Source: Desulfocarbo indianensis (GTDB lineage: Bacteria; Desulfobacterota; Desulfarculia; Desulfarculales; Desulfarculaceae). From it: a DNA stretch of 64,000 nucleotides. Position numbers and translations under genes: made by a program. Location of the stretch: positions 147,444 through 211,443 of the forward strand of contig LBMP01000002.1 in the NCBI GenBank assembly GCA_001184205.1, in the 5' to 3' direction. The notes below the pieces were generated by a model. It was given only the letters and a program-made list of their open reading frames with translations. It searched no databases and was not told where the DNA came from. This document shows, piece after piece, positions 19,344 through 52,573 of this stretch. Within the stretch, counting starts at the first letter, position 1. Every line of letters begins with the position of its first letter.

Positions 19344-20342
19344 ATGCACCTCTACCGCCTGGGCCGCGTCTCCTGGCAGGATTCCCAGCTTGCCTACCAC
19401 GCCCTGGCCCACCTGGGCCGCGAGGGGCTGGTGCTCTGCTCGCCGGAGCGGCCCTACCTGTCGGTGGGCTATTTTCAGGACCCGGCCCAGGAGCTGGACC
19501 TGGCCCATTGCCAGGCGGCCGGGCTGCCGGTGTTCCGCCGCGAGGTGGGCGGCGGCGCGGTCTACCTGGACCGCCACCAGATATTCTGGCAGGTGGTGCT
19601 GCGCCGGGAGAATCGGCTGGTCAGTCTGAACCGCCGGAAATTCTACGCCCGCCTGCTGGCCCCGGCGGTGGCGGTTTACCGGGACCTGGGGGTGCCCGCC
19701 CGCATAGCCCCGATCAACGACGTGGCCGTGGGCGAGCGGCGCATCGCGGGCACCGGCGCGGGCGAGATCGGCCAATGCGTGGCCTTTGTGGGCAATCTCA
19801 TGCGCCGCTTCGACTGCGCGGCCATGGCCCGGGCGCTGCGCGCCCCGGATGAGGCCTTCCGCCGGAGCTTCCAGGCCCACATGGAGCGGCAGCTCACCTC
19901 TCTGCGCCGGGAACTGGGCGCCCGATGCGAGGCCGAGCTGGACGACGAGGCGCTTTACGACCGGCTGGCCGCCCGCTTCGCCGAGGCGCTGGGCCCCCTG
20001 GAAGAGCGGCCTCTCGACGCCGAACTGCGCCGGGCCATGGAACGCCTGGGCCGCCGCCTGCTCTCGCCGGCCTGGACCTACTTCCCCCGCCGCCCCAGGA
20101 CCCAGCGCAAGGTCAAGGTGCGGGCCGGCATGTTCCTGCACTACTGGTCCCAGGACACCAGCCGGGGTAGGATCAGGGCGCAGTTCACCAGCCTGGACGG
20201 GAAGCTGGTGGAATTTAGCTTGCGGGAAGGGCCGGAGGAACCGAAGGGTTTGGAAAATCGCGTGCTGCGGGAACTCATGGGTGGCGACGTGCGGCTCTTG
20301 CAGAAATATTTGGGCGACATGGCCATCACCCTTACTAATTAA
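19344..20342 (+). CDS. lipoate-protein ligase A family protein (332 aa), catalytic Lys position is Arg
   Basis: This enzyme probably attaches lipoate or octanoate to the operon's own H-like protein. The LplA/BPL fold is shown by RREVGGGAVYLD (residues 65-76), which matches the RRxxGGGAVYHD lipoyl-AMP loop, and by PINDVAVG (123-130). A C-terminal accessory domain (about 230-332, RKVKVRAGMFLHYW) is present, as in full-length LplA. The Lys of the usual GRKISG motif appears as Arg (ERRIAG, R133). ATG 19344 begins six bases after the CCG gene. Its stop overlaps by eight bases the end of the convergent LysR gene. Confidence 0.85.
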   Translation: MHLYRLGRVSWQDSQLAYHALAHLGREGLVLCSPERPYLSVGYFQDPAQELDLAHCQAAGLPVFRREVGGGAVYLDRHQIFWQVVLRRENRLVSLNRRKFYARLLAPAVAVYRDLGVPARIAPINDVAVGERRIAGTGAGEIGQCVAFVGNLMRRFDCAAMARALRAPDEAFRRSFQAHMERQLTSLRRELGARCEAELDDEALYDRLAARFAEALGPLEERPLDAELRRAMERLGRRLLSPAWTYFPRRPRTQRKVKVRAGMFLHYWSQDTSRGRIRAQFTSLDGKLVEFSLREGPEEPKGLENRVLRELMGGDVRLLQKYLGDMAITLTN

Positions 20343-21261
20343 GCTGTGGTCCCAATAATAGCCTTTGGATCAAGGCTTGGTTATTGTCGAGAAAACGTAA
20401 AAAATGCCAGGCGGAAGATGATAAGTTACGTTGGGTAACATAGCCAACCCCCACATCCAAAAAAGGCGATCCTTCCGCCAGCCTCAGGGCTTTTAATTTT
20501 CCTTTTCTCAGCTCATCCAGCACAGCATATCTGACCACAAAGCCCAGGCCCTGTCCTTGTCCGACCAGTTCCTTGATCAAGTCCACGCTGGCCGATTCCA
20601 TCACGACCATGGGCCTGACTCGGTGGGTACTGAGATATTCCATGACCACATTACGCGAGGCCGAACCAACTTGAGTCAATATCAAAGGTAGGGAATCCAG
20701 TTGTTTAACCGATATTTTATTATCTGCTGAGTTAAATTTTTCAGGAGCGGCCACAAGAGTCAATTCAATCTGGAACATTGGTTTGATTTTGAATCTGGTC
20801 TCGTTGGGAATATTCCGGACAATGGCCAGTTCGTTTCTTTGTTGGATAAGGTTTTCCACCAATTCCGAACTGGTACCTTGATCCAGGCATAGATGCACTC
20901 CCGGGTGAGCGCTGTTGAATGCAGCCAGAATTTGAGGCATGAGGTATTTGGCCTGGGTCTGTGGACATCCGATTTTTAAGTTGCTCACTTTAATGCCGGC
21001 GCTGTCTTCCAGCTCATTTTCCAAGGCCCAAATCTGTTCGAAAATTGGTTTGGCTTTTTCCCAAAGGTTTTCTCCGGCGGGAGTAAGGCGCATGGAATGC
21101 CCCTGACGGGCCACCAATTTCATGTCCAAGGCGCTTTCCAGGTGCTTTATTTGCATGCTGATTGCCGGCGGAGTCACCATCAGTTCACCAGCGGCCTTGC
21201 TCACGCTTTGGTGCCGCACCATGGTGCAAAAAGCCCGCAATTGGTTGATGTTAAGTATCAC
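20335..21261 (-). CDS. LysR-family regulator (308 aa)
   Basis: This is probably the regulator of the divergent DUF89/PEP-domain/RdhA genes. The helix-turn-helix is N-terminal (LRAFCTMVRHQSVSKAAGEL, TPPAISMQIKHLE). The periplasmic-binding-like effector domain follows (LKIGCPQTQAKYLMPQIL, LDQGTSSELVENLI). ATG 21261 gives standard length. Codon use and base composition are AT-richer than the GC-rich operon before it, marking the left edge of a distinct block. The inducer is unknown; aromatic compounds are common ligands of the family. Confidence 0.9.
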   Translation of the reverse strand: MILNINQLRAFCTMVRHQSVSKAAGELMVTPPAISMQIKHLESALDMKLVARQGHSMRLTPAGENLWEKAKPIFEQIWALENELEDSAGIKVSNLKIGCPQTQAKYLMPQILAAFNSAHPGVHLCLDQGTSSELVENLIQQRNELAIVRNIPNETRFKIKPMFQIELTLVAAPEKFNSADNKISVKQLDSLPLILTQVGSASRNVVMEYLSTHRVRPMVVMESASVDLIKELVGQGQGLGFVVRYAVLDELRKGKLKALRLAEGSPFLDVGVGYVTQRNLSSSAWHFLRFLDNNQALIQRLLLGPQLN

Positions 21262-22020
21262 TTCACTTCTCTATCTCGCCCAATGATTTGCTGTAGACTC
21301 ACCGATGTTTTAAAAACGCCGGTTTAAAGGGAATGAAGGTATGGGTAATTCCCCGTTTTTGCTTCATCGGGCGTCGAATGGGCCGTTTAGTCAAACACAA
21401 TTTATACAATATATATTATTTTTATGATACCGCGCATAACAATAATTTTTAGGGCGTACTGAAATTAGGTCTCCATGGAATTCTTGGGGGACGCCGGTGC
21501 ACATTGCACGAAAGCGGCAGATAGCATGCCGATATCTTGCCATGTAAGTAAGCATGGATCGCTGAAAACATTGCCGCCTGCGCTCCGGACGGTTATGAAA
21601 AGCTCGGTTGTGATCTTTTTCTCAATATCGCCCCAGAAATATCGTGCCAGCGCAGTGTGTCGGCAAGGGTCAAATGACGTGTAATCGCCGGATAAAGTTT
21701 GGCCTCTAAGTCCATCCGGTTCAAAATAATCGAGGAATCAATCAACTGAAGATAATATAGTCTACCATATCTTGCGACAGGGCGGAAGCTGTCAGCCAAC
21801 CAGTATATATATCAACAATCACACCATCTTATCCCAGTTAAGATATTCTTAATAATCATTAAGTTTAATTGGTTTGCATGTTTGTGCTTGGGTGTTTATG
21901 CTCGGCTAGTTATCTGAATTGATACCGGGACAAAAGAGAGCCGCGGTCATCCGCTGAAAACATTTTATATATTTTATGTGTGGTATTTTGCTGATCCTAT
22001 AAGAATTTGATGGGATATCA
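21262..22020. other. 759-base AT-rich divergent control region
   Basis: The gap lies between lysR and the DUF89 gene and is markedly AT-rich, especially 21390-21450 and 21780-21880. Two short frames, one on each strand between 21475 and 21799, overlap each other and have no recognisable product, so I left them out. A palindrome at 21848-21863 is listed separately. No ribosome-binding site beyond TGATGGGATATCA before 22021 stands out. Confidence 0.5.
21848..21863. promoter_or_regulatory. palindrome CTTAAT-N4-ATTAAG, candidate LysR-type box
   Basis: Perfect six-base arms flank AATC. The element contains T-N11-A (T21850, A21862), the general LysR-regulator binding pattern. It lies about 160 bases before the DUF89 start and downstream of lysR's own start in the divergent gap, as expected for the recognition site of the adjacent regulator. 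Confidence 0.45.
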
Positions 22021-22893
22021 ATGTTAGTTAAACCAGACTGTATACCGTGCCTACTGAAAGGCAGCTTGGCGGCCATCAGGGTGTCAACGGATGATCCAGA
22101 TGTTGAAAAGTCTATCGCCGCTGACATACTGAATATACCGGAAATAAGAAACAATAATTGGCAAATACTAAGTCCAGAGTTATACGAAAAGGCCATAACC
22201 ATAATCAAACATCGCTCGGGGCTCTATGATCCATTTGCCGGGCTTAAGGAAAAGCAAAACAAAAGAGCAATGGAGCTTTATCCCAAGTTCAAGGCGCGCG
22301 TGGCTGAATCGGATGATCCGCTGATGGCAGCCGTCAAGCTGGCGATCATGGGCAACCATTCCGACTTGCTCATGTTCGAGAACTCATCGGATTTGGCCAA
22401 TCATATTGACAAGGCCTTGCAAGCCAACCTTCCCCAAGATATCTGGCGAGCTTTCAAGGAAAAACTGAAGAAGGGTAAAACTATTTTATATTTTGGCGAC
22501 AATGCTGGCGAAATAGTTTTGGACCGGATATTGATCGAACTTATCAGGGAGCGCTATGAAAACGAGGTGGTATACGTCGTTAAAAAGGAAGCGGCTTTGA
22601 ACGATTCCACCATGAAAGAGGGCCTGCAGGTTGGCATGGATCAGGTGGCCACTCTTATAGGAAACGGTATTGACGGACCTTTGCCGGGCACCATTATTTC
22701 ACGCTGCTCGCGGGAAGTGCAAAGGCTTTTTAAGGGCGCGGAGATGATAATTTCAAAAGGGGGAGGCAATTACGACAGCCTGGATGAAGAAGATTCCAAT
22801 AGGTCGAATATATTCTTCATGCTTTTGGCTAAGTGTTACCCTTACTGTCGGGTGTTTAATACGCACTTGTTTAGTTATGTGTTAGCCACATAA
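22021..22893 (+). CDS. DUF89 / ARMT1-like metal-dependent phosphatase family protein (290 aa)
   Basis: DUF89 proteins are metal-dependent phosphatases, several acting on damaged or unwanted sugar phosphates. The signatures are the N-terminal CIPC (C7, C10), FGDNAGE (D160, N161), LNDST (N194, D195) and SKGGGNYDSL near residue 245. The length fits the prokaryotic subfamily. It is the first gene of the divergent cluster and precedes a swivelling phosphohistidine protein. A phosphatase beside a phosphotransfer protein could serve repair or turnover of the phosphorylated product, which is inference. ATG 22021 is the first base of the frame's family-like sequence. Confidence 0.82.
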   Translation: MLVKPDCIPCLLKGSLAAIRVSTDDPDVEKSIAADILNIPEIRNNNWQILSPELYEKAITIIKHRSGLYDPFAGLKEKQNKRAMELYPKFKARVAESDDPLMAAVKLAIMGNHSDLLMFENSSDLANHIDKALQANLPQDIWRAFKEKLKKGKTILYFGDNAGEIVLDRILIELIRERYENEVVYVVKKEAALNDSTMKEGLQVGMDQVATLIGNGIDGPLPGTIISRCSREVQRLFKGAEMIISKGGGNYDSLDEEDSNRSNIFFMLLAKCYPYCRVFNTHLFSYVLAT

Positions 22894-22983
22894 TTAAAAT
22901 CCAGCAACATAACGCTTAAACAAATGGGAGGGGTGGTCAGAGACCAGCCAAGGGGTGGGCTTTTCTCAAAGGGAGGGAATAAC

Positions 22984-24714
22984 ATGAGAAATCTGGGATT
23001 AAAAATGGATTATGAGGAGCCGGACAGTATCCGAGCGATACGTCCCCAACATGGCGATGAAGGAATATTTTGGTTCCGGGATGATTTGCACAATCCTTAT
23101 CCCGTTTCCTCCTTGGGTATGAGCACGGTCCATCGCGGTCATATGTGGGGTTATGCCACTGCGGCGGAAGAGGCGAAGTTGCCCAGCAGTCGCGGAGCGA
23201 TTGTCAAGACGCATAATCAGCGGGTCTATCTTGGCTTTGTAGGGATAGAAGACCCTGAGGAAATTGAAAAAAGATTTGGCGAGTTCGTTTCGTTCGTTGA
23301 ACTCAACATCAATAACTGGGAGGAGTTTTATGGACGAATTATTGCGGAGGGCAAAAAGATAACCTGGCCCAATGTTCAGAAGGACTTAACGGTTTTAAGC
23401 AATGGAGACTTGCTGGATCATTTTCGCAAAACCGTCAGGGCCACCTTCCGGTGCTGGTATCTGCATTTCCGCGGAATGTATGTTTCGACTTCCGTCTATC
23501 TTCAGGGCGAGGAGTTTATTAAAAATCGCGGATTGTCCGAGCAGGGTTTCACCAACATGCTCACCGGACATGAAACAAAGGGACAATTAACCGACCGGGG
23601 CCAGTACCAGCTTTGCCGCTTGGCCTACGAAATACCGGCGGTCAAGGAATTGCTCCTTGGAGCGGACGACATAGCCATTGTCGTGGAAACACTGAAGACT
23701 TCCGAGAAATGTTCTCAGTGGTACCAGCAATTCAATGCCTACCTGTCCGAGTTTGGTCATCGCCTGACCGCAGCCATTTTGGACGTGAATTTTCCTACCT
23801 GGTGTGAAGACCCGACTCCGGTTATAGACAACATCCGCTCGATGATGCCCAAAATGGCGGCGGGCTGGGATTATGACCAGGAACTGGGGAAGATGCACCT
23901 CAAAAGGGACAAAGTCATCGCCCAGGCTCGTGGCCAATTGAGCGAGGAAGATCGCGCCGCCTTTGATGAGCAACTGCCCAATTGGCAAAAGGCATACGCC
24001 TACAATGAAGACCACTGGTTTTATCTGGAGCAGGTTTGTTTCAGCGCCATAAGGTACGCGGCTCTGGAAATAGGCCGCCGCTTGGCCGAGGCAAACATAA
24101 TCGAGGACCCGCAGGACGTTTTCCATCTGACCGATTATGAAATCTACGAGGTGATGGAAAGCCTGGCAGAGGCCAAAGGCCCGGCCCGCTATATCTACTC
24201 CCACCTGCTGGGGCCCCTGGTCAAACACCGAAAGGAATTATACGAAAAAGCCGGCAATCTCAAAGAGGCGCCCTTTTTAGGCAATGTACCGGAAACCGTG
24301 GAAGACCCCATTGCCATGAAGGTGTTCGGCCTTACCAACTTCATTCTGGATAAAGCGCGCCAGGAAACCACGGGAAAAACCGTCAAGGCCGAGGAAGTGC
24401 TGGAGGGCTTTCCGGGCGCGCCCGGCTTGGTCAAAGGCAAGGCCAAGGTCATAACCAGTCATAAGGATTTCCCCAAGGTTCAACCCGACGACATTTTGGT
24501 TTGTCCCTACACCTCGCCGGCCTGGACCTCCATCTTCCCCAAAGTGGCGGCGGTGGTGACCGATAGCGGTGGCATGCTCACTCACGCGGCCATCATGGCG
24601 AGGGAATACGGCGTGCCGGCCGTGGTGGGCACCTGGGTGGCCACCGAAACCATTAAAACCGGCGATACCATCATAGTAGACGGCAACAAGGGGAGAGTGG
24701 AAATTGTCCGCTGA
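22984..24714 (+). CDS. PEP-utilising swivelling-domain protein, phenylphosphate-synthase subunit 1-like (576 aa)
   Basis: The C-terminus is a phosphohistidine swivelling domain of the PEP synthase/PPDK type: SGGMLTHAAIMAREYGVP, with H534 as the predicted phospho-acceptor, then AVVGT and GDTIIVDGNKG. The N-terminal 440 residues are mostly helical. No ATP-grasp motif is seen here or in a neighbouring gene. This split layout matches what is known of phenylphosphate synthase, where the His-bearing subunit is separate from the ATP-binding one, and the size is similar. GGGAGGG precedes ATG 22984. It overlaps the RdhA-like gene by 11 bases. The substrate (phenol, another hydroxyl compound or an enol) is unproven. 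Confidence 0.78.
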   Translation: MRNLGLKMDYEEPDSIRAIRPQHGDEGIFWFRDDLHNPYPVSSLGMSTVHRGHMWGYATAAEEAKLPSSRGAIVKTHNQRVYLGFVGIEDPEEIEKRFGEFVSFVELNINNWEEFYGRIIAEGKKITWPNVQKDLTVLSNGDLLDHFRKTVRATFRCWYLHFRGMYVSTSVYLQGEEFIKNRGLSEQGFTNMLTGHETKGQLTDRGQYQLCRLAYEIPAVKELLLGADDIAIVVETLKTSEKCSQWYQQFNAYLSEFGHRLTAAILDVNFPTWCEDPTPVIDNIRSMMPKMAAGWDYDQELGKMHLKRDKVIAQARGQLSEEDRAAFDEQLPNWQKAYAYNEDHWFYLEQVCFSAIRYAALEIGRRLAEANIIEDPQDVFHLTDYEIYEVMESLAEAKGPARYIYSHLLGPLVKHRKELYEKAGNLKEAPFLGNVPETVEDPIAMKVFGLTNFILDKARQETTGKTVKAEEVLEGFPGAPGLVKGKAKVITSHKDFPKVQPDDILVCPYTSPAWTSIFPKVAAVVTDSGGMLTHAAIMAREYGVPAVVGTWVATETIKTGDTIIVDGNKGRVEIVR

Positions 24715-25891
24715 TAAGCGCAGGGATCCCAGCAAACCAACTCGGGAGCCGACATACAAAAAATATATCGTAGGCAAGTTGACCAGATTTCATGAGGACA
24801 ACACCGGTTATTCCAGGGCTGATAAAGGAGAGATTCCCGGCCCGGAATCCGCCTTGGAATATGGTCTTTTGAATAAGGCCAACAAAAACCAAATCGGGCA
24901 TCTGCGGGAGGACTTCGCCCTGAATCTGGCCGGCAGGGCCATAGACACCCTTTGCCGCAAAATGGTCCTGGGCCGGCAAAGGTTCCCCCGGCGCTGGGAC
25001 ATCCCCCATGCGGGCAAAACGGTGGACGACATTGTCTGGATGCGGGAAAAAATAAAAAAGGTCGGCAGGTGGTTCGGGGCCAGCCTGGTTGGCGTGGCCG
25101 AGCTCAACCCGCTATGGCTCTATTCCCATTGGGGCACCCACAATGTCAAGCTGGCCCCTGAGTTCAAAGTGGGGCAACCGATCGAAATGCCCGAAGGGGT
25201 AAACCGTGTCATCGTCATGGCCTTTGCCATGGACTACTACGACATCCAGCGCTCGCCGGCCGTGGTCCCCACCATCGATTTGGGCTATTCCCAACAAGCC
25301 TATACCGCCTTGATGGTGGCTGAATTCATCCGCCTGTTGGGCTATCAGGCCATCCCCAGCGGCAACGAGACGGGTTTATCCATCCCCATGGCGGTGGACG
25401 CGGGCTTGGGAGAGTTGGGCCGCAATGGCCAGCTTATCACCCTGGAGTACGGTCCCAGGGTCAGGTTGAGCAAGGTTTTCACCGATCTGCCCTTGGCGGT
25501 GGATGAACCGGTGGACTTGGGGGTGCAGCATTTTTGCGAAATATGCGGGAAATGCGCCCAGCAATGTCCGGGCAACGCCATCCCCCGAGGGGAAAGGACC
25601 GCCGAGCCGGTGAACATAAGCACCTCGCCCGGCCTCCTGAAATGGCCCGTGAACTCGGACCGCTGCCTGGCTTGGTGGAACAAGAGCGGCACCACCGGCT
25701 GCACCAACTGCATCAGGGTTTGCCCCTGGAACAAACCCGTGGGTTCCCAAATGCATAAGATGGTGGCCGGCATTATCAAAAAGACCGCGGCGCTGGACAA
25801 GATGCTGCTTTGGGGTGACGACCTGATGGGCTACGACAAACAGATAATCAGAGAGACCCCCAGTGAACTGGGGCTTAGAAAACGTTGTTAG
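24704..25891 (+). CDS. cytoplasmic reductive-dehalogenase (RdhA) homologue with two 4Fe-4S sites (395 aa)
   Basis: The protein has the RdhA core: GELGRNGQLITLEYGPRVRL followed by SKVFTDLPL. The clusters are CEICGKCAQQCPGNA and C-x11-C-x2-C-x3-CPWNKP. RdhA enzymes carry a corrinoid and remove halogens from aromatic or aliphatic compounds. This one lacks a Tat signal, and no RdhB anchor gene is nearby, so it would be cytoplasmic and non-respiratory. TTG 24704 is preceded by GGGGAGAG and overlaps the previous stop. QueG is related in its Fe-S region, but the TDLPL and CPWNKP motifs favour RdhA. A non-halogen substrate is possible. Confidence 0.8.
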   Translation: MSADKRRDPSKPTREPTYKKYIVGKLTRFHEDNTGYSRADKGEIPGPESALEYGLLNKANKNQIGHLREDFALNLAGRAIDTLCRKMVLGRQRFPRRWDIPHAGKTVDDIVWMREKIKKVGRWFGASLVGVAELNPLWLYSHWGTHNVKLAPEFKVGQPIEMPEGVNRVIVMAFAMDYYDIQRSPAVVPTIDLGYSQQAYTALMVAEFIRLLGYQAIPSGNETGLSIPMAVDAGLGELGRNGQLITLEYGPRVRLSKVFTDLPLAVDEPVDLGVQHFCEICGKCAQQCPGNAIPRGERTAEPVNISTSPGLLKWPVNSDRCLAWWNKSGTTGCTNCIRVCPWNKPVGSQMHKMVAGIIKKTAALDKMLLWGDDLMGYDKQIIRETPSELGLRKRC

Positions 25892-26082
25892 GTCTCTGAC
25901 ATTTCAAGGCGGGAGGGTGCTTTAGAAAAGCAAGAGACCGGGGCGGCCAGCTCTTAATCCTGGCGAGCGCTAAGATCATAACCATTTAAAACATCGAAAC
26001 AATTCCAGCTTGGGCCGGGATTGTCAGGGGATAGTAGGCTCAAAACGGCCCAGGAAAACAATTTGGAAAAGGGAGAAAGGGC

Positions 26083-27000
26083 ATGAAAAGAAGCTTGCTG
26101 ACGACGCTGTTGATGTTTTGCGCGTTCATTCTGCCACTGATTTTCTCATCCAACGCGGGCGCCACCGGAGGCGGCGGATTCGTGCCGGGCGTGGAAGGCG
26201 TCATGGCGGCGACCATGCCGCCGCCGGGGTTTCATTACCGGATGCAGACGTTGTTATATGACGCCGACACCCTGAGGGACAAAGATGGAAACGAAGTGCC
26301 CGTCTCGTTTTCCCTCAAGGTGCTGGCCAATGTGCACCGGCTGATCTGGATGACGGGCAAGAAGTTCCTGGGCGCTGATTACGGCGTTCACGTCATTGTC
26401 CCCTTGGTGGGCGTGGATCTGGAGCTGGGCGCTTGCCAGCATACCGAGAGCGACGTGGGCTTGGGGGACATAACCTTGGAGCCGCTGCTTCTGGCCTGGC
26501 ACGGAGAGCGTTGGGATGCTGTTTTAGGGCTCGCGCTTAATGTGCCCACCGGCCACTTCGACGCGACCGCCGGCGCCAACTGCGGAACCGGCACCTTAAG
26601 CGGCCTGCTGAACATCGGCGGGACCTATTATTTCGACGCTGAAAAGTCCTGGAGCGCCTCACTCCTCACCCGGACCCTGCTGTACGGCGAAACCAAAGAC
26701 ACTGACCTGACTCCAGGCACCGAGCTATTCATCGAGTGGGGCGTGGGCAAGCAGATAATGGCCCAAAAGGGATTCCTGGTCCGTCCCGGAATTTGCGGAT
26801 ACTCATATTGGCAGTTATCAGAGGATGACGGCGGGGGCGCCAGCAGTGACCTGGGACAGGTGCATGCCTTGGGCGCGGAAGCCAACCTTTTCTGGCTGAA
26901 CGGCGGTTACCAGGCCAACCTGCGCGTATTGCAGGAATTCGCGGCTGAGGATGAAGCTGAAGGCTTCAGGGCGATCCTGACCTTGACCAAATCCTTTTAA
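26083..27000 (+). CDS. outer-membrane channel of the SphA / phenol-degradation-associated (Phenol_MetA_deg) family (305 aa)
   Basis: A signal peptide (about residues 1-26, ending SNAGA) leads into a beta-rich protein with alternating aromatic strands and a C-terminal Phe (LTLTKSF), typical of outer-membrane barrels. The early FVPGVEGVMAATMPPPGFHYR and the later GLALNVPTGHFD resemble the family often encoded with aromatic-compound degradation genes. AAAGGGAGAAAGGGC precedes ATG 26083. It sits 190 bases after the RdhA-like gene and is followed by a strong hairpin, so it likely closes the transcription unit. A role in hydrophobic substrate uptake is inference. Confidence 0.75.
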   Translation: MKRSLLTTLLMFCAFILPLIFSSNAGATGGGGFVPGVEGVMAATMPPPGFHYRMQTLLYDADTLRDKDGNEVPVSFSLKVLANVHRLIWMTGKKFLGADYGVHVIVPLVGVDLELGACQHTESDVGLGDITLEPLLLAWHGERWDAVLGLALNVPTGHFDATAGANCGTGTLSGLLNIGGTYYFDAEKSWSASLLTRTLLYGETKDTDLTPGTELFIEWGVGKQIMAQKGFLVRPGICGYSYWQLSEDDGGGASSDLGQVHALGAEANLFWLNGGYQANLRVLQEFAAEDEAEGFRAILTLTKSF

Positions 27001-27104: not shown

Positions 27105-27160
27105 ATTAATCTGACAATCGGCTCCTTGGCCTTCGGGGTCGATTGTCAGATTAATTTTCC
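27105..27160 (+). terminator. long hairpin with 16-bp perfect stem and T-rich tail
   Basis: ATTAATCTGACAATCG (27105-27120) pairs perfectly with its complement at 27140-27155, and five further pairs including wobbles extend the stem inward to a nine-base loop. ATTTTCC follows. It is well placed to end the DUF89-to-channel unit. The AT-rich base is stronger than most intrinsic terminators need. Confidence 0.7.
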
Positions 27161-27449: not shown

Positions 27450-28481
27450 ATGAAGTATGTAATGAACCTGCGGGCGCGCGACCGGCGCCCCGCCCCCCAA
27501 AGCATTGATTACCGCCTGGAAGACGCCCCCCCTCCGGAGGATGGCGGCATCCAGGTGTGGCGGCTGCGTCCCGGCTTGATCCTCAACGTGGCCCGTCTGG
27601 GGCAAGGCAAAGGGGGGAAGGCCGGCTTCGACATCTGCGAAGCCCCCATCCAGTTCGGCTTTATCCAAGCCGGCCACAACCGCTGCACCTATGATCAAGG
27701 TAAAATGGCGGGCCAGACCCACGACCTGCGCGCCGGCAGCAACGGCATCTTCCACTTGCCCAAAACCACCGGCTTCATCGAAAACGACACCCGGAGGGCC
27801 ATGTGCGTGGTCAGCGTGCTGGCCAGCCCCGAGTTTCTGCGCGGCTACCTGTCCGATGAGAATGAGCGTCTCCCCCGCGCCTTTTGCGACGTCCTGGAAG
27901 GCCGCGCCAAGGGCCAGTTCAGCTGGCAAGGCTCTCCCCAGCCCGCCAAGGAGAGCATGCTCAACCGCCTGCTGGCCCGGCCCCATCACGGCGGTTTGGA
28001 GCGCATGCGCCTGGAGAGCCTGGTTCTGGAACTGCTCTCCTGGCAGCTCCGGGAATACTTCGCCGCCGCTAAAGGAGCCTCGCCCCGGTCTCCCCGCCTG
28101 CGGGGCGATGACTTGGAGCGGGTGGCCCTGGCCAGGGAGATACTGCTCCGGCGCCTGGAGGACCCCCCCAGCCTGGGACAGTTGGCCCGGCAGGCGGGGC
28201 TCAACGAGAAGAAGCTGAAGAACGGCTTTCACCAGCTTTATGGGGCCTCGGTGTTCGGATATTTGCGCAATCATCGATTGGAAAAGGCCCGTGAGCTTTT
28301 GGAGGCTGGTCGCCTGAACGTCAGCGAGACCGCCTTCAGCGTGGGCTACGCCAGCCTGAGCCACTTCAGCCGGGCTTTTCGCCGCCGTTACGGGCTCAAT
28401 CCCAAGGATTACCTGCAGCGCCACCGTCCGTTGCCGCCAAATGAATGGAGCGGGCAAGGGATGGGAGCCAACCTGCGCTGA
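27450..28481 (+). CDS. AraC-family regulator, PchR/YbtA-like (343 aa)
   Basis: The C-terminal 100 residues carry two helix-turn-helix units (PPSLGQLARQAGLNEKKLKNGF and NVSETAFSVGYASLSHFSRAFRRRYGLNPKDY). The N-terminal part (about 1-220) lacks an obvious cupin pattern and is like that of the siderophore-responsive PchR group, whose members activate TonB-dependent receptor genes. The next gene is such a receptor, so it is probably the target. ATG 27450 was taken as start; a Shine-Dalgarno is not clear. Confidence 0.88.
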   Translation: MKYVMNLRARDRRPAPQSIDYRLEDAPPPEDGGIQVWRLRPGLILNVARLGQGKGGKAGFDICEAPIQFGFIQAGHNRCTYDQGKMAGQTHDLRAGSNGIFHLPKTTGFIENDTRRAMCVVSVLASPEFLRGYLSDENERLPRAFCDVLEGRAKGQFSWQGSPQPAKESMLNRLLARPHHGGLERMRLESLVLELLSWQLREYFAAAKGASPRSPRLRGDDLERVALAREILLRRLEDPPSLGQLARQAGLNEKKLKNGFHQLYGASVFGYLRNHRLEKARELLEAGRLNVSETAFSVGYASLSHFSRAFRRRYGLNPKDYLQRHRPLPPNEWSGQGMGANLR

Positions 28482-28768
28482 GCCAGGCTTGGGGGGGAAG
28501 TGGCCCGAAGCCGCCCCAGGGGGCGTGCGATGGCGGGCAGGCTGTGATCCCTTCTCCTTGGCTTTTGGCTGGGCCCCAAAAAGTCCCGCAAGAGCAAAAA
28601 ATGCTCCCGCCAAGATTAGACCGTTCTAACTTAAAACGCTAAATAGGAGAGCCATCCGAGTCCGTTCCGTCGCCCCTCGATCCGGAGCAACGGAGCCTTG
28701 AGCCTAATTTAAGCCTCGCCGCGGGGCTGCCCAACCCTCGGCGGCCAGGCAAACGAAAGGCTTACTTC
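28482..28768. other. 287-base leader of the TonB-receptor operon
   Basis: No gene. The stretch around 28610-28650 is AT-richer and may hold the promoter bound by the AraC protein. I looked for a cobalamin riboswitch, which often precedes TonB receptor genes, but saw no conserved core box. The Shine-Dalgarno before 28769 is weak (GAAAGG). Confidence 0.45.
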
Positions 28769-30853
28769 ATGAAGAAGCTCCTATTTTTAACGGCAAGCCT
28801 GCTTTTGTTGCCGGCGTTGTGCGCCGCCGAGTCCAGCCTCTCCGCCCCGGAGCAATCCTCCAGCGGCCGCGATCCCTATCTGTTGGAGAAGATCACGGTC
28901 ACCGCCGGCAAGCGCGAGAGCGATCTCAAGGAATACCCCGGCAGCGTCTCGGTGGTGAGCGAGACGGCTTTGGAGATGAAGGGAGCCTGGGACCTCAGCG
29001 AGGCCCTGCAAATGGTGCCCAACGCTTACATGAAAAACACCACCTCGGGCAACGCCGTGATCATCCGGGGCCTTTCCACCATCGACACCTCCCTGTTCAG
29101 CCCGGCCGGCCTCTACGTGGACGACGTGGCCTATCCCCTCAACTACATGCAGGACCTGGACCTCATGGACGTGGAGCGCCTGGAGGTTTCGCGAGGCCCC
29201 CAGGGCACCCTCTACGGGGCCAACAGTGAAGCGGGCGTGATCAATGTGGTGCTGGCCCAGCCGGGCCCCGAGACGCGGGCCAAGGCCAACGCCGAATACG
29301 GCGACTACAACCGCCTGCGCCTGGCGGCTTCGGTCTCGGGGCCGGTGTATCAGGACAAGCTGTTCATAGGGGCCTCTGCCCTGCGCACCACCACCGACGG
29401 CTACGTGACCAACCTGAGCAAGGACGACGACCGGGCGGGCAAGCGGGAAGTGACCGGCGGCCGCCTGAGCTTGCGCTATGTGCCCAGCCAGGCTTGGGAC
29501 CTTTCCCTGTCCATGGACGGCAGGAACAAAAACCTGGGCCTGGGGGCCCTCCGTTATCTCAGCGGCCCCAACCGGACCGAGGCCTATGACGTGAAATCCA
29601 ACGCCGCGGACCTGGCCCACGAAAACAGCCTGGACCAGAGCCTGCGGGTGAAACACAGCGGCGACTGGGCCGACTTCGTTTCCATCACCTCCCACCGCGG
29701 CTATGGCTATGACTTCATCATGGACGTCGACCGCAGCGCCACGCCCATGGGCGAGTCGGATGTGGACCTGGAGCTGGGCTCCTGGAGCCAGGAGTTCCGC
29801 CTCAGCTCCAAGCGGCCCGGCCCCCTGGCCTGGCTGGTGGGGGCCTATGGCAAGCAGGACAACCTGGAGGTGACCATGGCGCGCAATTTCGCCGTGGCCG
29901 CCCGCTCCTATAAGCTCAAGACCGACTCCGATCTCCAGAGTTGCGCCGCCTTTGGCCAGGCCACCTACACCATCGCCGACGGCCTGCGCTTCACCGCCGG
30001 GCTGCGCCTGGAGATATCCGGCGCCTCGGGCGACCAGCATTACAAGTCCCTCTCGGCCGACCGTAAATACAGCCGCGACCTGGACTCCACCGAGCTGTTG
30101 CCCATGGCCGCGCTGTCCTATGACCTGAACCGCCACCTCACCATGTACGCAAGCTTTTCCACCGGCCATCTGGCCGGCGGCTATAATTATTTTTCCGCCA
30201 ACAGCCTGGACGCCTTTTCCTATGAGCCCGAATACACCTATAACTACGAGGCGGGCCTGAAAACCTCCTGGCTGGAGGGCAAGCTCCTGGGCAACCTGGC
30301 CCTGTTTCACACCGACATCCGGGACAAGCAGGTGCGCGAGGAAAGCCCCGGCGGCGGGGTGGGGGTGTGGCGCTTCAGCAACGCGGCCCAGGCCCACTCC
30401 ACCGGCGGCGAGCTGGAGTTGACCGCCCGCCCCCTAAGCGGCCTGGTCATCAGCGCCGGGGTGGGCTACGCCTTCACCGAGGTGGACCAGTGGAGCGTAA
30501 ATAACGGCGGCGTCAGCACCGACTACGCGGGCAAGCACCTGCCCTGGGCCCCGGACCTCACCTACAACCTGGCCGTGTCCTATCACCATCCCTCGGGCCT
30601 TTTCGCGCGGGCGGATTTGTTCGGCGCGGGCGAGCAGTACTTTGACGCGGCTAATTCCCTTAGCGATGACGGCTACCAGCTGGTGGGAGCCCGGCTGGGC
30701 TATGAGTGGTCCCGGTGCAACCTGTCGCTGTGGATCAAAAACGCCTTTAACGAAACCCACGCCACCAAAAAGGTCCTCGACAATTCGGGCAACATCATGG
30801 TCCAGGACGGAGACCCCCGCACCTTTGGCGTTTCCCTGAACTGGAGGTTTTAA
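28769..30853 (+). CDS. TonB-dependent outer-membrane receptor (694 aa)
   Basis: This receptor imports a scarce ligand (chelated metal, cofactor or other) using TonB energy. The signal peptide ends LCAAES. The plug domain (about 40-155) starts with a TonB-box-like EKITVTAGKRES and includes NAVIIRGLSTIDTS, VEVSRGPQGTLYGANSEAGVINV-type signature pieces and YVDDVAYP. A long 22-strand barrel follows, ending in GVSLNWRF with terminal Phe. It heads a close-packed unit with a methyltransferase and an ABC importer, so the ligand probably crosses both membranes through this locus. Confidence 0.93.
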   Translation: MKKLLFLTASLLLLPALCAAESSLSAPEQSSSGRDPYLLEKITVTAGKRESDLKEYPGSVSVVSETALEMKGAWDLSEALQMVPNAYMKNTTSGNAVIIRGLSTIDTSLFSPAGLYVDDVAYPLNYMQDLDLMDVERLEVSRGPQGTLYGANSEAGVINVVLAQPGPETRAKANAEYGDYNRLRLAASVSGPVYQDKLFIGASALRTTTDGYVTNLSKDDDRAGKREVTGGRLSLRYVPSQAWDLSLSMDGRNKNLGLGALRYLSGPNRTEAYDVKSNAADLAHENSLDQSLRVKHSGDWADFVSITSHRGYGYDFIMDVDRSATPMGESDVDLELGSWSQEFRLSSKRPGPLAWLVGAYGKQDNLEVTMARNFAVAARSYKLKTDSDLQSCAAFGQATYTIADGLRFTAGLRLEISGASGDQHYKSLSADRKYSRDLDSTELLPMAALSYDLNRHLTMYASFSTGHLAGGYNYFSANSLDAFSYEPEYTYNYEAGLKTSWLEGKLLGNLALFHTDIRDKQVREESPGGGVGVWRFSNAAQAHSTGGELELTARPLSGLVISAGVGYAFTEVDQWSVNNGGVSTDYAGKHLPWAPDLTYNLAVSYHHPSGLFARADLFGAGEQYFDAANSLSDDGYQLVGARLGYEWSRCNLSLWIKNAFNETHATKKVLDNSGNIMVQDGDPRTFGVSLNWRF

Positions 30854-30856
30854 GCG

Positions 30857-31888
30857 ATGTCAGCAAGGATGGAAACCCCGGGGCCGAGCTACGCCCCGCT
30901 TATGGATTGGCTGCTGGGGCCGGTGCGCCAGGCCCTGTTGCAGACCGCCCTGGAGCTGGACCTGCCCGGCCTCCTGACCGAGACCGGCGACCCTCAGGAG
31001 CTGGCCAGGCGCCTGGGGGCCCACCAGGGCAACCTGGTGCGCCTGCTGGACGGTCTCACCGCCCTGGGCCTGGCCGAAAAACGCGACGGGCATTATGCCA
31101 ATACCCCCCTGGCCGATATCTACCTGCGCCGGGACCGCCAGACCTGGCTGGGGGACATGCTCCTTAGCCTCATTCCCATGCAGCAGGCCAACCTGGGCCG
31201 CCTGAACGAACTGGTGCTCCAGGGGCCGCCCGAGGTAAAGCGGGAAATGCGGTTGGATTCGCCGGAGCACTGGCAGCGGGCCGCCCGCTATCTGGCCAAT
31301 TACCAGAGGGCCGGTTTGGGCCGTCTGGCCGCGGACCTGGCCGAGGCCCTGCCCGAATTCCCCGGTTTTCGGCGCATGCTGGATTTGGGCGGCGGGCCGG
31401 GCTTGGTGGGCGCGGCCATATTGGCGCGCCATCCCGCGCTGCACTGCGTGCTGTGCGATCAGCCGCCAGTGGCCGCCGTGGCCCAGGAACTGGCCCAGTC
31501 CCAAGGCCTGGCCGGGCGCATGTCTTTCATCGCCGGGGACTACAACCAGGAGGACCTGGGCCAAGGCTACGACCTAATCTGGGCCAGCCACTGCCTGTAC
31601 TACGTCAAGGAGCGCACGGCCTTCATGGAGCGCTTGCTCCAGGCCCTGAATCCCGGCGGGGTGCTCTTGTGCCTGCACGAGGGCCTCACCAACCAGCGTA
31701 GCGGCCCGGCCTATTACGTGCTCTCGCGCCTGTCCCTGGCCCTGGAGGGGCAGGACGTTTCCTTTGACCAGGGCGAATTGGCCGAGCACATGCGCCGGGC
31801 CGGTTTCGCCCAGGTGGAAAGCCGGCCCATGGAGCTGGCCACCGGCCTCACCTGGCTGGACGTGGGACGCAAGGCGAGGCGGTCATGA
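30857..31888 (+). CDS. SAM-dependent O-methyltransferase-like protein, dimerisation plus Rossmann domain (343 aa)
   Basis: The N-terminal winged-helix dimerisation domain (about 10-90: LLQTALELDLPGLL, NLVRLLDGLTALGLAEK) precedes a class I methyltransferase domain with motif I MLDLGGGPGLVGAAIL (about 174-189) and a DLIWASHCLYYVKE stretch. This is the COMT / hydroxyneurosporene-methyltransferase architecture. It sits three bases after the receptor gene and overlaps the binding-protein gene (ATGA). It may modify the imported ligand; members near metallophore loci are known, but the substrate here cannot be read. Confidence 0.85.
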   Translation: MSARMETPGPSYAPLMDWLLGPVRQALLQTALELDLPGLLTETGDPQELARRLGAHQGNLVRLLDGLTALGLAEKRDGHYANTPLADIYLRRDRQTWLGDMLLSLIPMQQANLGRLNELVLQGPPEVKREMRLDSPEHWQRAARYLANYQRAGLGRLAADLAEALPEFPGFRRMLDLGGGPGLVGAAILARHPALHCVLCDQPPVAAVAQELAQSQGLAGRMSFIAGDYNQEDLGQGYDLIWASHCLYYVKERTAFMERLLQALNPGGVLLCLHEGLTNQRSGPAYYVLSRLSLALEGQDVSFDQGELAEHMRRAGFAQVESRPMELATGLTWLDVGRKARRS

Positions 31889-32853
31889 TCGCCCACCTGC
31901 TCATGGCCCTGCTGCTGGCCGCCCTGGCCCTGCCGGGGCCGGCCATGGGAGGCGGCGGAGAGTTGCGCCTCTCCGGCCCGCCGGTGGCGCAAACCCTGGC
32001 CCTGCTGGCCATGGCCGACCAGGGCCGCTTGCCCGGCACCGGCCTCAGCGCGCGCTTCACGCCCTGGCGCAGCCCGGACCAGCTTCGGGCCCAGGTGGCC
32101 GGGGAGCAGACCGACGCGGTGCTGGTGACCATCGCCACCGCCGCGGTGCTGCGGGCCCGCCAGGTGCCCTGCCGGGTGCTGGCGGTGATGGCCCCGCCGG
32201 TGTGGCTGGTCACCTCCCAGCCGGGGGCCGCCGGCCTGGCCGAACTCGCCGGCCGAGAGATCATGCTGCCTTTCGGCCCCGGCGAGATGCCCGCTCTGCT
32301 CTTGGCCACCGTGGCCGAAAAGCAGGGCGTGAAGCTGGGGACCCGCCAGGCGGGCGGTGCCCTGGAGGCGGTGAACCTTTTGATCATGGGGCGGGCCCAG
32401 GCGGCTCTATTGAGCGAGCCGGCCGCTTCCCTGGCCCTGGCGCGGGCCAGCATGACCAAGGGGGGGCGCGCCCTTTATAAGAGCGTGGACCTGCGCCGCT
32501 CCTGGGCCCGGGCTTTTCCCGCCAGCCCTCTCTTGGCCACCACGGCCCTGGTCATGGTGGGGCAGCGGGCCCGGCAGCCCGAGGTTTGCCAGGCGGTGGC
32601 CGCGGCCTTCCGGGGGCAGTGCGGCTGGGTGACAAAACACCCGGCCCAGGCCGAGGCCCTGGCCGATAAGATGTTCCCCGCCCTGGCCGGTCAATTGGCC
32701 ATGGCGTCCCAAGCCGGGCGGGACATATGCCTGTTGAACGCTGAGCAAGGCCGGGACGCGGCCTTGTTTTTCTTGAGCCGGCTTTATGAAAAATCTCCCG
32801 CCGCCACGGGCGGGGTCAGGCCGGGCCCCTCCCTGTGGGAGTCCGCACCGTGA
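31885..32853 (+). CDS. periplasmic substrate-binding protein of a SsuA/NMT1-like ABC importer (322 aa)
   Basis: A signal peptide (residues 1-22, ending PAMGG) is followed by two lobes with the NMT1/SsuA pattern: EQTDAVLVTIATAAVLRA, LAELAGREIMLPFGPGEMPALL and GRAQAALLSEPAAS. There is no lipobox, so it should be a free periplasmic receptor. It overlaps the methyltransferase at ATGA and the fused transporter gene at GTGA, so the whole unit is translationally coupled. The ligand is unknown. Confidence 0.83.
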   Translation: MIAHLLMALLLAALALPGPAMGGGGELRLSGPPVAQTLALLAMADQGRLPGTGLSARFTPWRSPDQLRAQVAGEQTDAVLVTIATAAVLRARQVPCRVLAVMAPPVWLVTSQPGAAGLAELAGREIMLPFGPGEMPALLLATVAEKQGVKLGTRQAGGALEAVNLLIMGRAQAALLSEPAASLALARASMTKGGRALYKSVDLRRSWARAFPASPLLATTALVMVGQRARQPEVCQAVAAAFRGQCGWVTKHPAQAEALADKMFPALAGQLAMASQAGRDICLLNAEQGRDAALFFLSRLYEKSPAATGGVRPGPSLWESAP

Positions 32854-42516: not shown

Positions 42517-42990
42517 CTACTTTTCCCCTTGGGAAAGGCGCTGCCGCATGACATTTCCGATGGCTTCCAGCATGACCGACAAGGTGGCGATTTGCGACAA
42601 TGAAAACCCGTTTAAGCGCTCAACCAATTCCGCCATGTCCTTGCCATGAAACTGTTCGTGAGCGTGAAACACTTTCCAGCCCATGGGGGTGAGGCTCAAA
42701 TCATATTCCTTGTTGCTGTGCAGCGACAAGTTTTTGGTCAAGCAGCCTTTTTGAGCCAATCTTGATACCATTTGCGAGGCCGCGCTTTTGGTGATGCCAA
42801 ATAGCTGCGCCACATCGGTCACGCTTATTTTTTCATGCTCTCCGATCGCCTGTATGGTGTGGGCTTCCCGCGTGGTGACGTCGAAGTTTTCCTCGACTTT
42901 TATGGGCAGCTCTTCAATGCGGGAATACAGCTTCGCCACCCGCAGCAATTCCCTGATCGTGGCCTTGATGAAGTCGTCCTTGGTTTCCAT
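42517..42990 (-). CDS. MarR-family regulator (157 aa)
   Basis: This is a winged-helix dimeric repressor. It shows the MarR layout: an N-terminal helix, then REAHTIQAIGEHEKISVTDVAQLFGITKSAASQMVSRL (recognition region at ITKSAASQMVSRL), the wing with LHSNKEYDLSLTPMG, and C-terminal dimer helices. ATG 42990 gives standard length. It lies 315 bases beyond the TsaA-like gene, so it may or may not share a transcript with the ATPase/methyltransferase genes. Ligand unknown. Confidence 0.88.
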   Translation of the reverse strand: METKDDFIKATIRELLRVAKLYSRIEELPIKVEENFDVTTREAHTIQAIGEHEKISVTDVAQLFGITKSAASQMVSRLAQKGCLTKNLSLHSNKEYDLSLTPMGWKVFHAHEQFHGKDMAELVERLNGFSLSQIATLSVMLEAIGNVMRQRLSQGEK

Positions 42991-43305
42991 GAATTCATGG
43001 TATAGCGGCTTAACTGTGCTGTCAAGCCGTGGACACCCTTGCCCTACCGAAACCGGAACCCGGTGACGGTTACAGCGACGGGCTCGCCCCCGAATTGCAC
43101 GGGGTTCCCTATTAAGCTGAAAGCGCCTGAATCGCGAATTGAAAAAATGCTTTTTACATTAGATGATCCTCCCCGCACCAGCGGCGCATCTTTGGGGGAG
43201 GCGGCTTGCTTGTCTCCCTGGCGGCTGGCGGGCCGCGGATAATATCCACCCCGGTGGCGGGCCGCGGATAATATCCACCCCGGTGGCGGGCGGCGGTTCC
43301 CAAGT
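42991..43305. other. 315-base spacer with a 29-bp tandem duplication
   Basis: No gene is evident between the marR start and the TsaA-like stop. The stretch 43120-43170 is AT-rich and may hold the marR promoter on the minus strand. Two exact 29-base tandem copies occupy 43232-43260 and 43261-43289 and are described separately. Confidence 0.55.
43232..43289. repeat. two exact tandem copies of a 29-bp unit
   Basis: The unit begins GCCGCGGATAATATCC and ends CCCCGGTGGCGG. Copies at 43232-43260 and 43261-43289 are identical, flanked by further GGCGG bases. Each contains a CCACC/GGTGG mini-hairpin. Perfect identity suggests a recent duplication just after the TsaA-like gene. Confidence 0.9.
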
Positions 43306-44562: not shown

Positions 44563-47500
44563 CTACAGATAGTGGATAAACGCGTCTATCTTGGCCTGGT
44601 CGTTTTCATCCCAGTTGCCGTCGAAATTCAGATTCAAGGCCGGCGTGCCGTGATTGCAAGCCTTGTGCAAAATGCCCAGGGCGATGCCCGTATTTTCATA
44701 GGTGGAGGATACGTTGATGATTCCGTCGATATGGGCTGGGTCGCCCATCTGCTTGGCCGCGCGGTATCTTCCGTTGGCGCCGGCGTAGAAACCCACGCTT
44801 TGATCGGCCTTTTCAGCAAGGGCGCTCAATTCATCCTCAAAGGGCGAATAATCCGCCAGGCGCAAGGACACGGATCGGATGGCTTGCTCGAGTTCATTGA
44901 GGTTGCTCTGGTAATTCTCCCCGCACTTGGCCGGATTTTGGCTCAGGTAATCCCGCCAGAACAGCCACATGAATTCGCTCATGGGGCTCAGAATTAGTTG
45001 GTGGCCCCGCTCCTCCATGTTCTTCAAGCGGTAATGGTTGAGGTGGTCGTTGAAGATCAAGAACGGCTCGCCCAGAACCAATATGCGCTTGGCCCTTTTG
45101 CGCGCGGGCAGTTCCTTTGGCAGACTCGCGGCCATCTCCTCCAGCGCCTGCAAGCTGAGCCCATCGCGGGCGATCAGTTGGAGAACCCGCTTCAGTCGGC
45201 CGGGCCGGTCTTGCATGGGGGCCAAATTGATCAAATCCCCGGCCAGGAGCGCCCGGCAGGCCGGGCCGGCCAGGCCGGGAGGCGCTTGCAGGGCGTCCTC
45301 CAGAAAGGGCGCCACGATATCCACCCGCTGGCGGCCGGTTTCATCCAGGATGGTTCTCAGCAGGCGGTTGTATTGGCCGTCGGTCTCGGCTCCTTCGGTC
45401 TGGGGAACCAGGAAGGCGGAGGCGCCGTTGTTCTTGTTGGCCTGTCCCAAAACATCCCCCAACAGGGCGGTGAGAGAAAAATATTCGCTGGTCAGGGTGT
45501 GCTTTCTGCCCAGATCGACCGAGGCCTGCGAGCTGGGCGCCAGGGCCTCGGCCTTGATTCCCCGGCGGGTGAGGATGGCCGCCAGGATGTGGGAATAGGG
45601 AAAAAGGTGGGGCAGATACAGGGTGGCCTTGTTGGCCAGCTCCGCCACCCTGGTTTTAAGCGCGACCGGGGGGCCGGCCGCCCGCGCCACGTAGTTGGCC
45701 ACCGGCTCGGCCACGGCGGGTTTTCTCGCCCGCAGGCTGTTTACAAAGGCCTCCACCCTGGTGATCACCCCCACGTCCGAGGAGTGCTCATCCACCTCGA
45801 TGTTCAGATAGGGCTTGCCCGCCATGATCTCCCTGAAAAAGTGCACCAGCATCGAATCCGGCCCGCAGCAGTGGTGGGTCAGGAAAATGGCGTAGAGATT
45901 GGGATGGCTTCTCACCAATTGGGCGGCCTCCAGGATGTGCTGGCCAAAGGGCCAATACATGTTGGGATGCATGGCGGAAAGGTCCGTCTGGGGCAGGTTG
46001 TAAAAAGTCAGCACCTTGTAACCCAGGTCCATGAGCTTGCCCGGAATCCCCATGTTGAGCGCCGGGTCGGCCACGCCATAGATCTTGGAGATAAGCACGA
46101 AGGCCTTCTCGTCGGGCTTCAGTTCCGCCAGGGTTTTTTGGCCCGCCAGCTCCATTCTCTTTTCAAAATCATGATAGGCCCGCATGCCTGCCCCCAGGGC
46201 CATTTGGGTCTCCTGTTCCGTCTTGCCCAGTTGCCGGCCCAGGCTGCCAAAACTTCTCATCATGAATTCCTTGCCTTGGCTGAAGGCAATGGTGGGGGCC
46301 AGCAATTGGATGTCGTGCTTGGCCAGCTCCATGGCTTGGTTGACGATCTTGAAGGCCAGTTGCATGTAGGCGCAGCCGAAGTTCTGCCTGGTGTGAGAGC
46401 CCGCATGGTCCACCGTGTAGAGATCAGGGAAGAAGAGATAGTCCACTTTTTTCCCCACCAGCTCGGCCACGTGGCCGTTGATCAGCTTGACCGGGTAGCA
46501 GGTTTCATCCAGGGAGTGTTCCTGGCCCAGCCGGATGGTGTCTTCGCTGGTGGGCTCCGAAAGCAGCGCGTTGCAGCCGAGCGCCTGAAAAAAGGCGTTG
46601 AACATGGGAAACATGCCGAAGGTGAACAAGGCCCGGGGAATGCCCACCGTCTTCCGGCCGCCGCCGGGACTGGGTCGGTAGCCCTGGAACACCAGATCGT
46701 TCACCCGCCGGTTGAACAGATCGTTATGGTCCTGCTTGAGAATGAGGGGGAGGCTGGCGCGGCTCTCCCGCCGGGGGGCTGGCAAATCGAATCCCTTGAA
46801 TTTGCTGGGCGCTTGGCCCGCGTTTTCGCGCGCCAGGATGGCCGCCCCCATGGCGCCGCTGACGCTGAAAAAGGGCGGCACCTGGACATCCTTGCCGGTG
46901 AGGGATCTGAAGGCGTTCACCACGCCCTGGTTAAAGGCCACCCCGCCTTGGAAGGAAATTCTTTGGCCGATCTTTTTGGTTCCCACCACCCGGTTGAGAT
47001 AATTCCTGGCGATGGAATAGCAAAGCCCGGCCGTTATGTCCTGGAGCTTGGCCCCCTGGGCCAGGTGGGCCGCCACGTTGGTTCCCATGAAAACCGTGCA
47101 TCTTTCGCCCAGGTTGATGGGCTCCCGGCTGGAAAGGGCGATTTCGCCCATCTGCTCCACGGGGATGGCGAACTTTTTGGCCTGCTCTTCCAGAAACGAG
47201 CCGGTGCCGGCGGCGCAGACCTTGTTCATCTGAAAATCGGTCACCGCCCCCTGGCTGAGGCTTATGAACTTGGAGTCCTGGCCGCCGATCTCGAAGATGG
47301 TGTCTATTCGCCGGTCCAGGCTCATGGCCGCCCTGGCCTGGGCGGTTATCTCGTCCTTGATGGCGTCGGCCCCCACCATTTCCGCGATCATGTAGCGGCC
47401 GGAGCCGGTCACCCCCACCCCCGCCACGTTTATTGCCGCGCCCAGCTTGCCTTGCAGCCAGGCCAGCCCCTTGACCACCTGGGCCGCCGGCCTGCCCAGG

Positions 47501-48543: not shown

Positions 48544-48546
48544 CAT

Positions 48547-52562: not shown

Positions 52563-52573
52563 GGCGTGGCCTC

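Follow-up and report, generated by a model that had tools for sequence, protein, structure and literature searches.

The 64,000-nucleotide stretch of Desulfocarbo indianensis DNA analysed here (contig LBMP01000002.1, positions 147,444 to 211,443; hereafter the window) contains a plus-strand unit of four genes, which encode a DUF89/ARMT1-like protein, a phosphohistidine swivel protein (PpsA1), a homologue of the reductive dehalogenase RdhA and an outer-membrane channel, flanked by a divergent LysR-type regulator (Table 1). The same four genes and the flanking regulator had been named in a preliminary description of the sequence, and all of these open reading frames are present, with their families backed by profiles. 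The pairing of a kinase component with a dehalogenase homologue recurs in unrelated genomes and suggests an as yet undescribed anaerobic pathway for the degradation of phenol-like, probably halogenated, compounds.

Table 1. Features of the LysR-flanked unit (positions in the window)
Feature	Position	Strand	Evidence or remark
LysR-type regulator	20335..21261	-	PF03466/PF00126; divergent from unit
Intergenic region, 759 bases, presumed regulatory	21262..22020		42% G+C
DUF89/ARMT1-like metal-dependent phosphatase family protein	22021..22893	+	PF01937, E=1.6e-51
Swivel protein PpsA1 (P0002)	22984..24714 (open reading frame opens at 22924)	+	PF00391, E=2e-26
RdhA homologue (P0003)	24704..25891	+	TIGR02486, 211.6 bits
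Outer-membrane channel, PF13557 family	26083..27000	+	PF13557, E=6.4e-44
Hairpin, end of unit	27105..27155	+	inverted repeat

The open reading frame of the swivel protein comprises 596 codons, with the PF00391 domain at its end. Its true start is most likely the internal ATG given in Table 1, because the residues upstream are disordered in the structural model and are not common to relatives; with this start, the 90-base gap after the DUF89 gene that was noted earlier holds. The RdhA gene starts at a TTG codon and overlaps the swivel gene by 11 bases, and the channel gene begins 191 bases past its end, in agreement with the overlap and the distance of about 190 bases first reported. The strong hairpin said to close the unit has 21-nucleotide arms with 90% complementarity and a 9-nucleotide loop, and does not appear among the listings of a canonical terminator scan. 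The genes of the unit are presumably co-transcribed. The G+C content amounts to 42% in the intergenic region, 46% in the DUF89 gene, 48% in the LysR gene, 53% in the swivel gene and 57% in the RdhA gene, values below the 64-70% of the sampled flanking genes. This difference, absent from the preliminary description, suggests that the unit is a laterally acquired patch.

The RdhA homologue, the only one in the host genome, passes the curated reductive dehalogenase model (cut-off, 160.35 bits). Assignment as the epoxyqueuosine reductase QueG was rejected (TIGR00276, 55.8 bits against a cut-off of 200); a separate weak match on contig C222 is possibly the QueG of this genome. In an alignment with PceA, residues Y195, N221 and R254 sit on the catalytic residues Y246, N272 and R305. 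Among 31 relatives, Y195 and R254 are invariant, N221 is conserved in at least 90%, and the cysteines of two [4Fe-4S] motifs (Cys 278, 281, 284, 288, 321, 333, 336 and 340) are likewise invariant. The AlphaFold model (pLDDT 90.4) has PceA-type enzymes as its best matches, followed by NpRdhA structures, among them the complex with 3-bromo-4-hydroxybenzoate. No Tat signal (RRxFxK) was found at the N-terminus and no RdhB-like open reading frame directly beside the gene. A respiratory dehalogenase was therefore rejected, and the enzyme looks cytoplasmic and catabolic because these two features are missing. Respiratory PceA is its closest solved relative by sequence and fold, with the catalytic Tyr, Asn and Arg kept, whereas the window RdhA has a shorter N-terminal part in addition to lacking the Tat signal and RdhB. 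With the catabolic, cytoplasmic enzymes BhbA of Comamonas 7D-2 and NpRdhA, the latter within its top group of fold matches, it has in common the active-site Tyr, the Fe-S core and the absence of Tat and RdhB. In contrast to these references, which are about twice as long through a fused reductase part, the window RdhA has 395 residues, belongs to another clade and sits with a kinase half. In the tree, the window RdhA groups with the homologues of two contigs, L087 and L088 (support 100), within a 19-row clade (support 99) to which neither BhbA/Nitratireductor nor the respiratory references belong; the latter are on long branches and of unsure placement themselves. Plasmid and phage records yielded only distant dehalogenases and QueG. 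RdhA homologues of the cytoplasmic kind are on record from anaerobes of marine sediments, with substrates and partners described as not known (PMC6797604, PMC6129605, PMC4959651). Within the literature searched, which included few subscription journals, the accessible text describes the cytoplasmic RdhAs of Desulfatiglans and Dehalococcoidia without such kinase partners. Phenylphosphate synthase and reductive dehalogenase were mentioned together there in a single paper, a career review of one researcher, in which the two are not joined. A second recurring partner of RdhA homologues is aldehyde:ferredoxin oxidoreductase (AOR), encoded a few kilobases from them in Chloroflexota and Acidobacteriota (L102, L107, L131, L136 and L141).

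By profiles and model, PpsA1 consists of acceptor and swivel domains only, with no ATP-grasp domain. Its model matches rifampin phosphotransferase over the length of PpsA1 (TMq 0.65), and His554, in the motif T-x-x-G-G-x-x-x-H, is invariant among relatives. The proteins HpeH and PpsA have the same architecture, and their partners HpeI and PpsB bear the ATP site; in HpeHI, the conserved His serves to phosphorylate phenolic hydroxyls (PMC12167813). By its domains and motif, PpsA1 is probably the acceptor half of a two-component aryl dikinase related to PpsAB, HpeHI and CreHI. Like PpsA1, the corresponding protein of these systems and of phenylphosphoamidate synthase is an acceptor-plus-swivel protein of about 600 residues with a conserved His (PMC12167813, PMC6114531, PMC7500099). 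A separate ATP-grasp protein and a link to aromatic catabolic genes, which characterize systems of the PpsAB/HpeHI/CreHI type, are also found here, whereas the location of the ATP half in another cluster and the overlap with an RdhA gene set PpsA1 apart from the known aryl dikinases. In a midpoint-rooted tree of 51 PpsA-like proteins (characterised sequences, including the Pas-alpha of Desulfatiglans anilini, not included), PpsA1 pairs with the L087 protein (support 98) next to the second PpsA-like protein of the host, PpsA2, and its relatives (support 99). All lie inside a separate 14-row clade (support 100). None of the ten carboxylase-linked PpsAs belongs to it; they are placed on the opposite side of the tree, at about 25-32% identity to PpsA1. 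The earlier likening of the swivel protein to a phenylphosphate synthase subunit thus stands as far as the acceptor half of a phenol-acting kind of kinase is concerned, and fails as to the phenylphosphate synthase clade itself; PpsA1 appears to be a relative of that enzyme rather than a demonstrated example of it.

Such a kinase needs an ATP-grasp half, a point that the preliminary description lacked. The host genome carries two PpsA-like genes and one standalone PPDK_N. The latter, a PpsB 60% identical to that of L087 and the only standalone candidate for the ATP-grasp partner, is encoded in another cluster (G000:C1:389412-390377); PpsA1 may pair with this PpsB in trans. This C1 cluster (374.8-390.4 kb) encodes PpsB, an amidohydrolase (Amid1), an HAD protein, a 205-residue protein, an FMN ene-reductase-like protein, a CoA ligase, an SDR, an acyl-CoA dehydrogenase, PpsA2 and regulators. 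Amid1 resembles ACMSD and the 5-carboxyvanillate and gamma-resorcylate decarboxylases. Besides PpsB, the identities between C1 and L087 are 76% for Amid1, 81% for the HAD protein and 66% for the CoA ligase, and L087 has in one run what the host splits between C1 and the window. A precedent for parts recruited from several clusters is the sulfate reducer D. anilini (PMC7500099), and the present arrangement suggests that the two halves of an aryl dikinase can be encoded in separate clusters. A hexapeptide-repeat gene (gamma carbonic anhydrase-like) lies near or beside PpsA2 in the host (L024:16787-17323) and in genome G105 (L209:8563-9087). The acceptor of the kinase could also be an aromatic amine (aniline or a haloaniline), with a phosphoamidate as product and RdhA dehalogenating the haloaniline or its carboxylated product. 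The model for such a reaction is the phenylphosphoamidate synthase of D. anilini, whose Pas-alpha is 27% identical to the Pps-alpha of the same organism and accepts both aniline and phenol (PMC7500099), and PpsA1 is similarly distant (about 25-32%) from the carboxylase-linked PpsAs. Hydroxy-aromatics are fitted at least equally well by the amidohydrolase and the DHB-ligase-like CoA ligase of L087 and C1, and we regard the amine as an unlikely acceptor.

Linkage in other genomes was judged on individually read contigs and not from coordinates across the 395-genome set. The four closest RdhA relatives with readable neighbours (68, 60, 53 and 48% identity) all have a PpsA-like protein and PpsB nearby, and RdhA occurs with PpsA and PpsB on five other contigs, so that the conserved co-occurrence for which a search had been proposed was found. 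On L087 (Desulfatiglandales), a single run contains PpsB, an amidohydrolase-2, an HAD protein, a 209-residue protein, a CoA ligase, a further amidohydrolase-2, PpsA (54%) and RdhA (68%), and L088 (Desulfobacteraceae) carries a LysR regulator (48%), RdhA (60%), PpsA and PpsB. On L067, a LysR regulator (41%), PpsA, PpsB, UPF0261, RdhA (48%) and a second RdhA are encoded; its PpsA homologue is split in two overlapping frames (L067:2445-4222), owing to a frameshift or an assembly error. L099 has a CoA ligase, UbiD, RdhA (53%), Liv-type ABC genes, PpsA, PpsB and a second UbiD; the first UbiD of L099 is nearest to phenylphosphate carboxylase beta, at 286.6 bits against a cut-off of 468.95. On L073/L118, PpsB, PpsA, AOR, a more distant RdhA (39%) and DUF89 are found. 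A further RdhA match of 68% lies at the start of contig L124, where the upstream side is unreadable. A related divergent LysR gene is present in two of the four closest neighbourhoods, and with the L088 regulator as query the window LysR is the top match in the host genome (288 bits; next, 93). Classification of the window LysR as the selenium-associated NF040786 type was rejected (172 bits against a cut-off of 250).

Near RdhA relatives, 0.96 Mb of sequence contained five PpsA genes, whereas the phylum density predicts about 0.08; the Poisson figures assume a mean genome size of roughly 3.3 Mb and a PpsA density from the matches listed. At assumed densities of 0.5 and 1 per Mb, the probabilities are 1e-4 and 0.003, respectively. 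When PpsA linkage inside and outside the RdhA clade was compared (4/17 vs 1/48), a Fisher test gave only a modest p=0.015. The RdhA-linked PpsAs are spread over several PpsA clades, so that their association with RdhA seems to have formed on more than one occasion. These counts, with those for the DUF89 clade given below, bear on whether the genes of the unit are chance neighbours, that is, unrelated cargo of one transferred patch. G+C rises from the DUF89 gene to the channel gene, and the patch may be of mixed origin, but the excess of PpsA genes near RdhA relatives and of DUF89-PpsAB loci makes chance neighbourhood the most improbable of the explanations considered here.

A role outside aromatic catabolism was also considered, in which the kinase inactivates a toxic hydroxylated compound, in the manner of rifampin phosphotransferase, and RdhA detoxifies halogenated natural products. 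The fold match of PpsA1 and the position of the unit in a laterally gained patch agree with such a role; the neighbours in L087, L099 and C1 are, by contrast, catabolic (CoA ligase, UbiD, amidohydrolase, SDR, acyl-CoA dehydrogenase and ABC uptake), which makes detoxification quite improbable.

The DUF89 protein matches PF01937 over its full length (175.8 bits against a cut-off of 25), with the metal-site motifs DNAGE at 160 and NDST at 194, and is predicted to be an active member of this metal-dependent phosphatase family. It is kin of the DUF89/ARMT1-like damage-control phosphatases with structures PH1575 and AF1104. It remains far under the curated cut-offs of the named equivalogs (136.6 vs 440), and its clade, unlike the known phosphatases, is linked to aryl dikinase genes. 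The host has three DUF89 genes. Relatives of the window protein (42-47%) lie with PpsA/PpsB on L220 (G394) and on the closely related pair L247/L248 (G237/G377), which counts as one locus. On L243 (G105), another such relative is near PpsB, in the company of genes for a PAS protein and a sigma-54 regulator. This gives three independent loci against 0.01-0.08 expected, and a more distant DUF89 adjoins RdhA in L073 and L077. The linkage of DUF89 is thus mainly to the kinase, which would fit a phosphatase acting on an aryl phosphate, and the DUF89 clade gains a likely metabolic partner. A second, distant DUF89 (24-25% identical to that of the window) stands directly beside PpsB at L247:9660-10571 and L248:9897-10949, and on a Bathyarchaeota contig a DUF89 gene (31%; L152:7566-11026) is about 2 kb from an RdhA homologue. 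As regards the channel, the name of its family (Phenol_MetA_deg) is in itself no evidence of phenol metabolism, and the earlier labelling of the protein as associated with phenol degradation falls with it.

The host genome (G000; 5.1 Mb, 98.65% complete) encodes the class II benzoyl-CoA reductase BamB (E=1.3e-220 to 4z3w) as part of a series of further redox genes resembling a bam cluster, a single UbiD gene adjoining a UbiA-like gene, and CobS. In the window itself, a benzoate-CoA ligase family gene lies at 56111-57772 (+) (TIGR02262, 665 bits against a cut-off of 375), and at 49732-53449 (-) are genes for molybdenum hydroxylase subunits that come closest to 4-hydroxybenzoyl-CoA reductase or xanthine dehydrogenase, along with a 2Fe-2S subunit gene and an IclR-like gene; the alpha subunit reaches 853 bits with TIGR03194, below the equivalog cut-off of 994.55.

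Computation gives the families, the intact catalytic motifs, the folds, the conserved linkage and this host aromatic gene set, and the linkage and the kinds of enzyme are well supported. It is about an even call that the unit, under LysR control and probably gained by lateral transfer, serves as an anaerobic catabolic module whose substrate is an aromatic compound with a hydroxyl group and, most likely, a halogen. In the proposed mechanism, the channel would admit the compound to the periplasm and, in the cytoplasm, His554 of PpsA1 would receive a phosphoryl group from the PpsB of C1 and hand it to the aromatic hydroxyl. RdhA would take off the halogen by corrinoid chemistry with Tyr195 and Arg254, as in PceA and NpRdhA, and DUF89 would cleave phosphate esters, which would either restore the ring hydroxyl or dispose of products phosphorylated by mistake. 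Next, the ring may go to the enzymes of the C1 cluster (amidohydrolase-2, HAD, CoA ligase, ene-reductase, SDR and acyl-CoA dehydrogenase) and from there to the hydroxybenzoyl-CoA/benzoyl-CoA enzymes of the host. We infer the halogenated substrate, the order of phosphorylation and dehalogenation, and the target of DUF89. Neither the halogenation of the substrate, raised earlier as a possibility, nor the order of phosphorylation and reduction is shown by anything in the sequence. The broader suggestion of a phenolic pathway by phosphorylation and reduction is strengthened by the conserved neighbourhood, the kind of kinase and the host aromatic genes, and weakened by the lack of a phenylphosphate carboxylase in the genome searched. 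A clade of RdhA tied to aryl dikinases, LysR regulators and CoA-dependent aromatic degradation offers the testable hypothesis of dehalogenation for anaerobic carbon use and not for respiration.

Several observations weigh against this catabolic module. The unit contains no PpsB, and PpsA1, lying outside the clade linked to phenylphosphate carboxylase, is not supported as a phenylphosphate synthase alpha subunit proper. No match to the alpha subunit of that carboxylase (TIGR02723) was found in the host genome at 1e-60, and on these two grounds the module comes with no assigned step after phosphorylation. Most of the readable contigs in the 19-row RdhA clade (13 of 17) show no PpsA, and L220 has DUF89 with PpsAB and no RdhA, so that DUF89 need not serve dehalogenation. 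The RdhA family itself is the sole halogen-specific element of the unit.

Some of these points bear on the possibility that RdhA removes a group other than a halogen, such as a methoxyl or, in a reductive dehydroxylation, the phosphate that the kinase attaches. The superfamily can reduce non-halide substrates, as its member QueG does. The overlap of the PpsA1 and RdhA genes, the origin of RdhA-linked PpsAs in several PpsA clades and the want of a carboxylase partner in the host genome also agree with this possibility, whereas the catalytic Tyr, Asn and Arg of dehalogenases are all kept, PpsA2 lies in a cluster without RdhA, and no corrinoid enzyme is known to us to remove phosphate reductively. 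On balance, a non-halogen leaving group seems doubtful, about as much so as the aromatic amine. Its most specific form, in which the phosphate set by the kinase turns the phenol hydroxyl into a leaving group that RdhA expels, would amount to an ATP-driven reductive dehydroxylation; we know of no such reaction of phenols described for the RdhA family, and consider this version very unlikely, though somewhat less so than chance neighbourhood.

Directly downstream of the unit (27450-32853, +) lie genes for an AraC regulator, a siderophore-type TonB-dependent receptor and an O-methyltransferase-like protein. A role of the receptor in B12 uptake was considered and is not claimed; the siderophore-type model scores best, and the B12 model gives 44.5 bits. 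A cobalamin riboswitch match (Rfam RF00174, 34.2 bits, gathering threshold 31.5) at 42978-43155 (-) lies just upstream of, and overlaps the start of, a MarR-family gene (42517-42990). A 1344-residue single chain encoded at 44563-48597 (-) combines a BadF/BcrA-type activase, DUF2229 and an HGD-D-like part. On C1 of the host genome, the minus-strand open reading frames of L024:113-5823 (G000:C1:358113-363823) contain the repeated peptides SIHAPARGAT, FNPRPRAGGD and FQSTPPRGGR, and the region looks like a translated CRISPR array of several kilobases.

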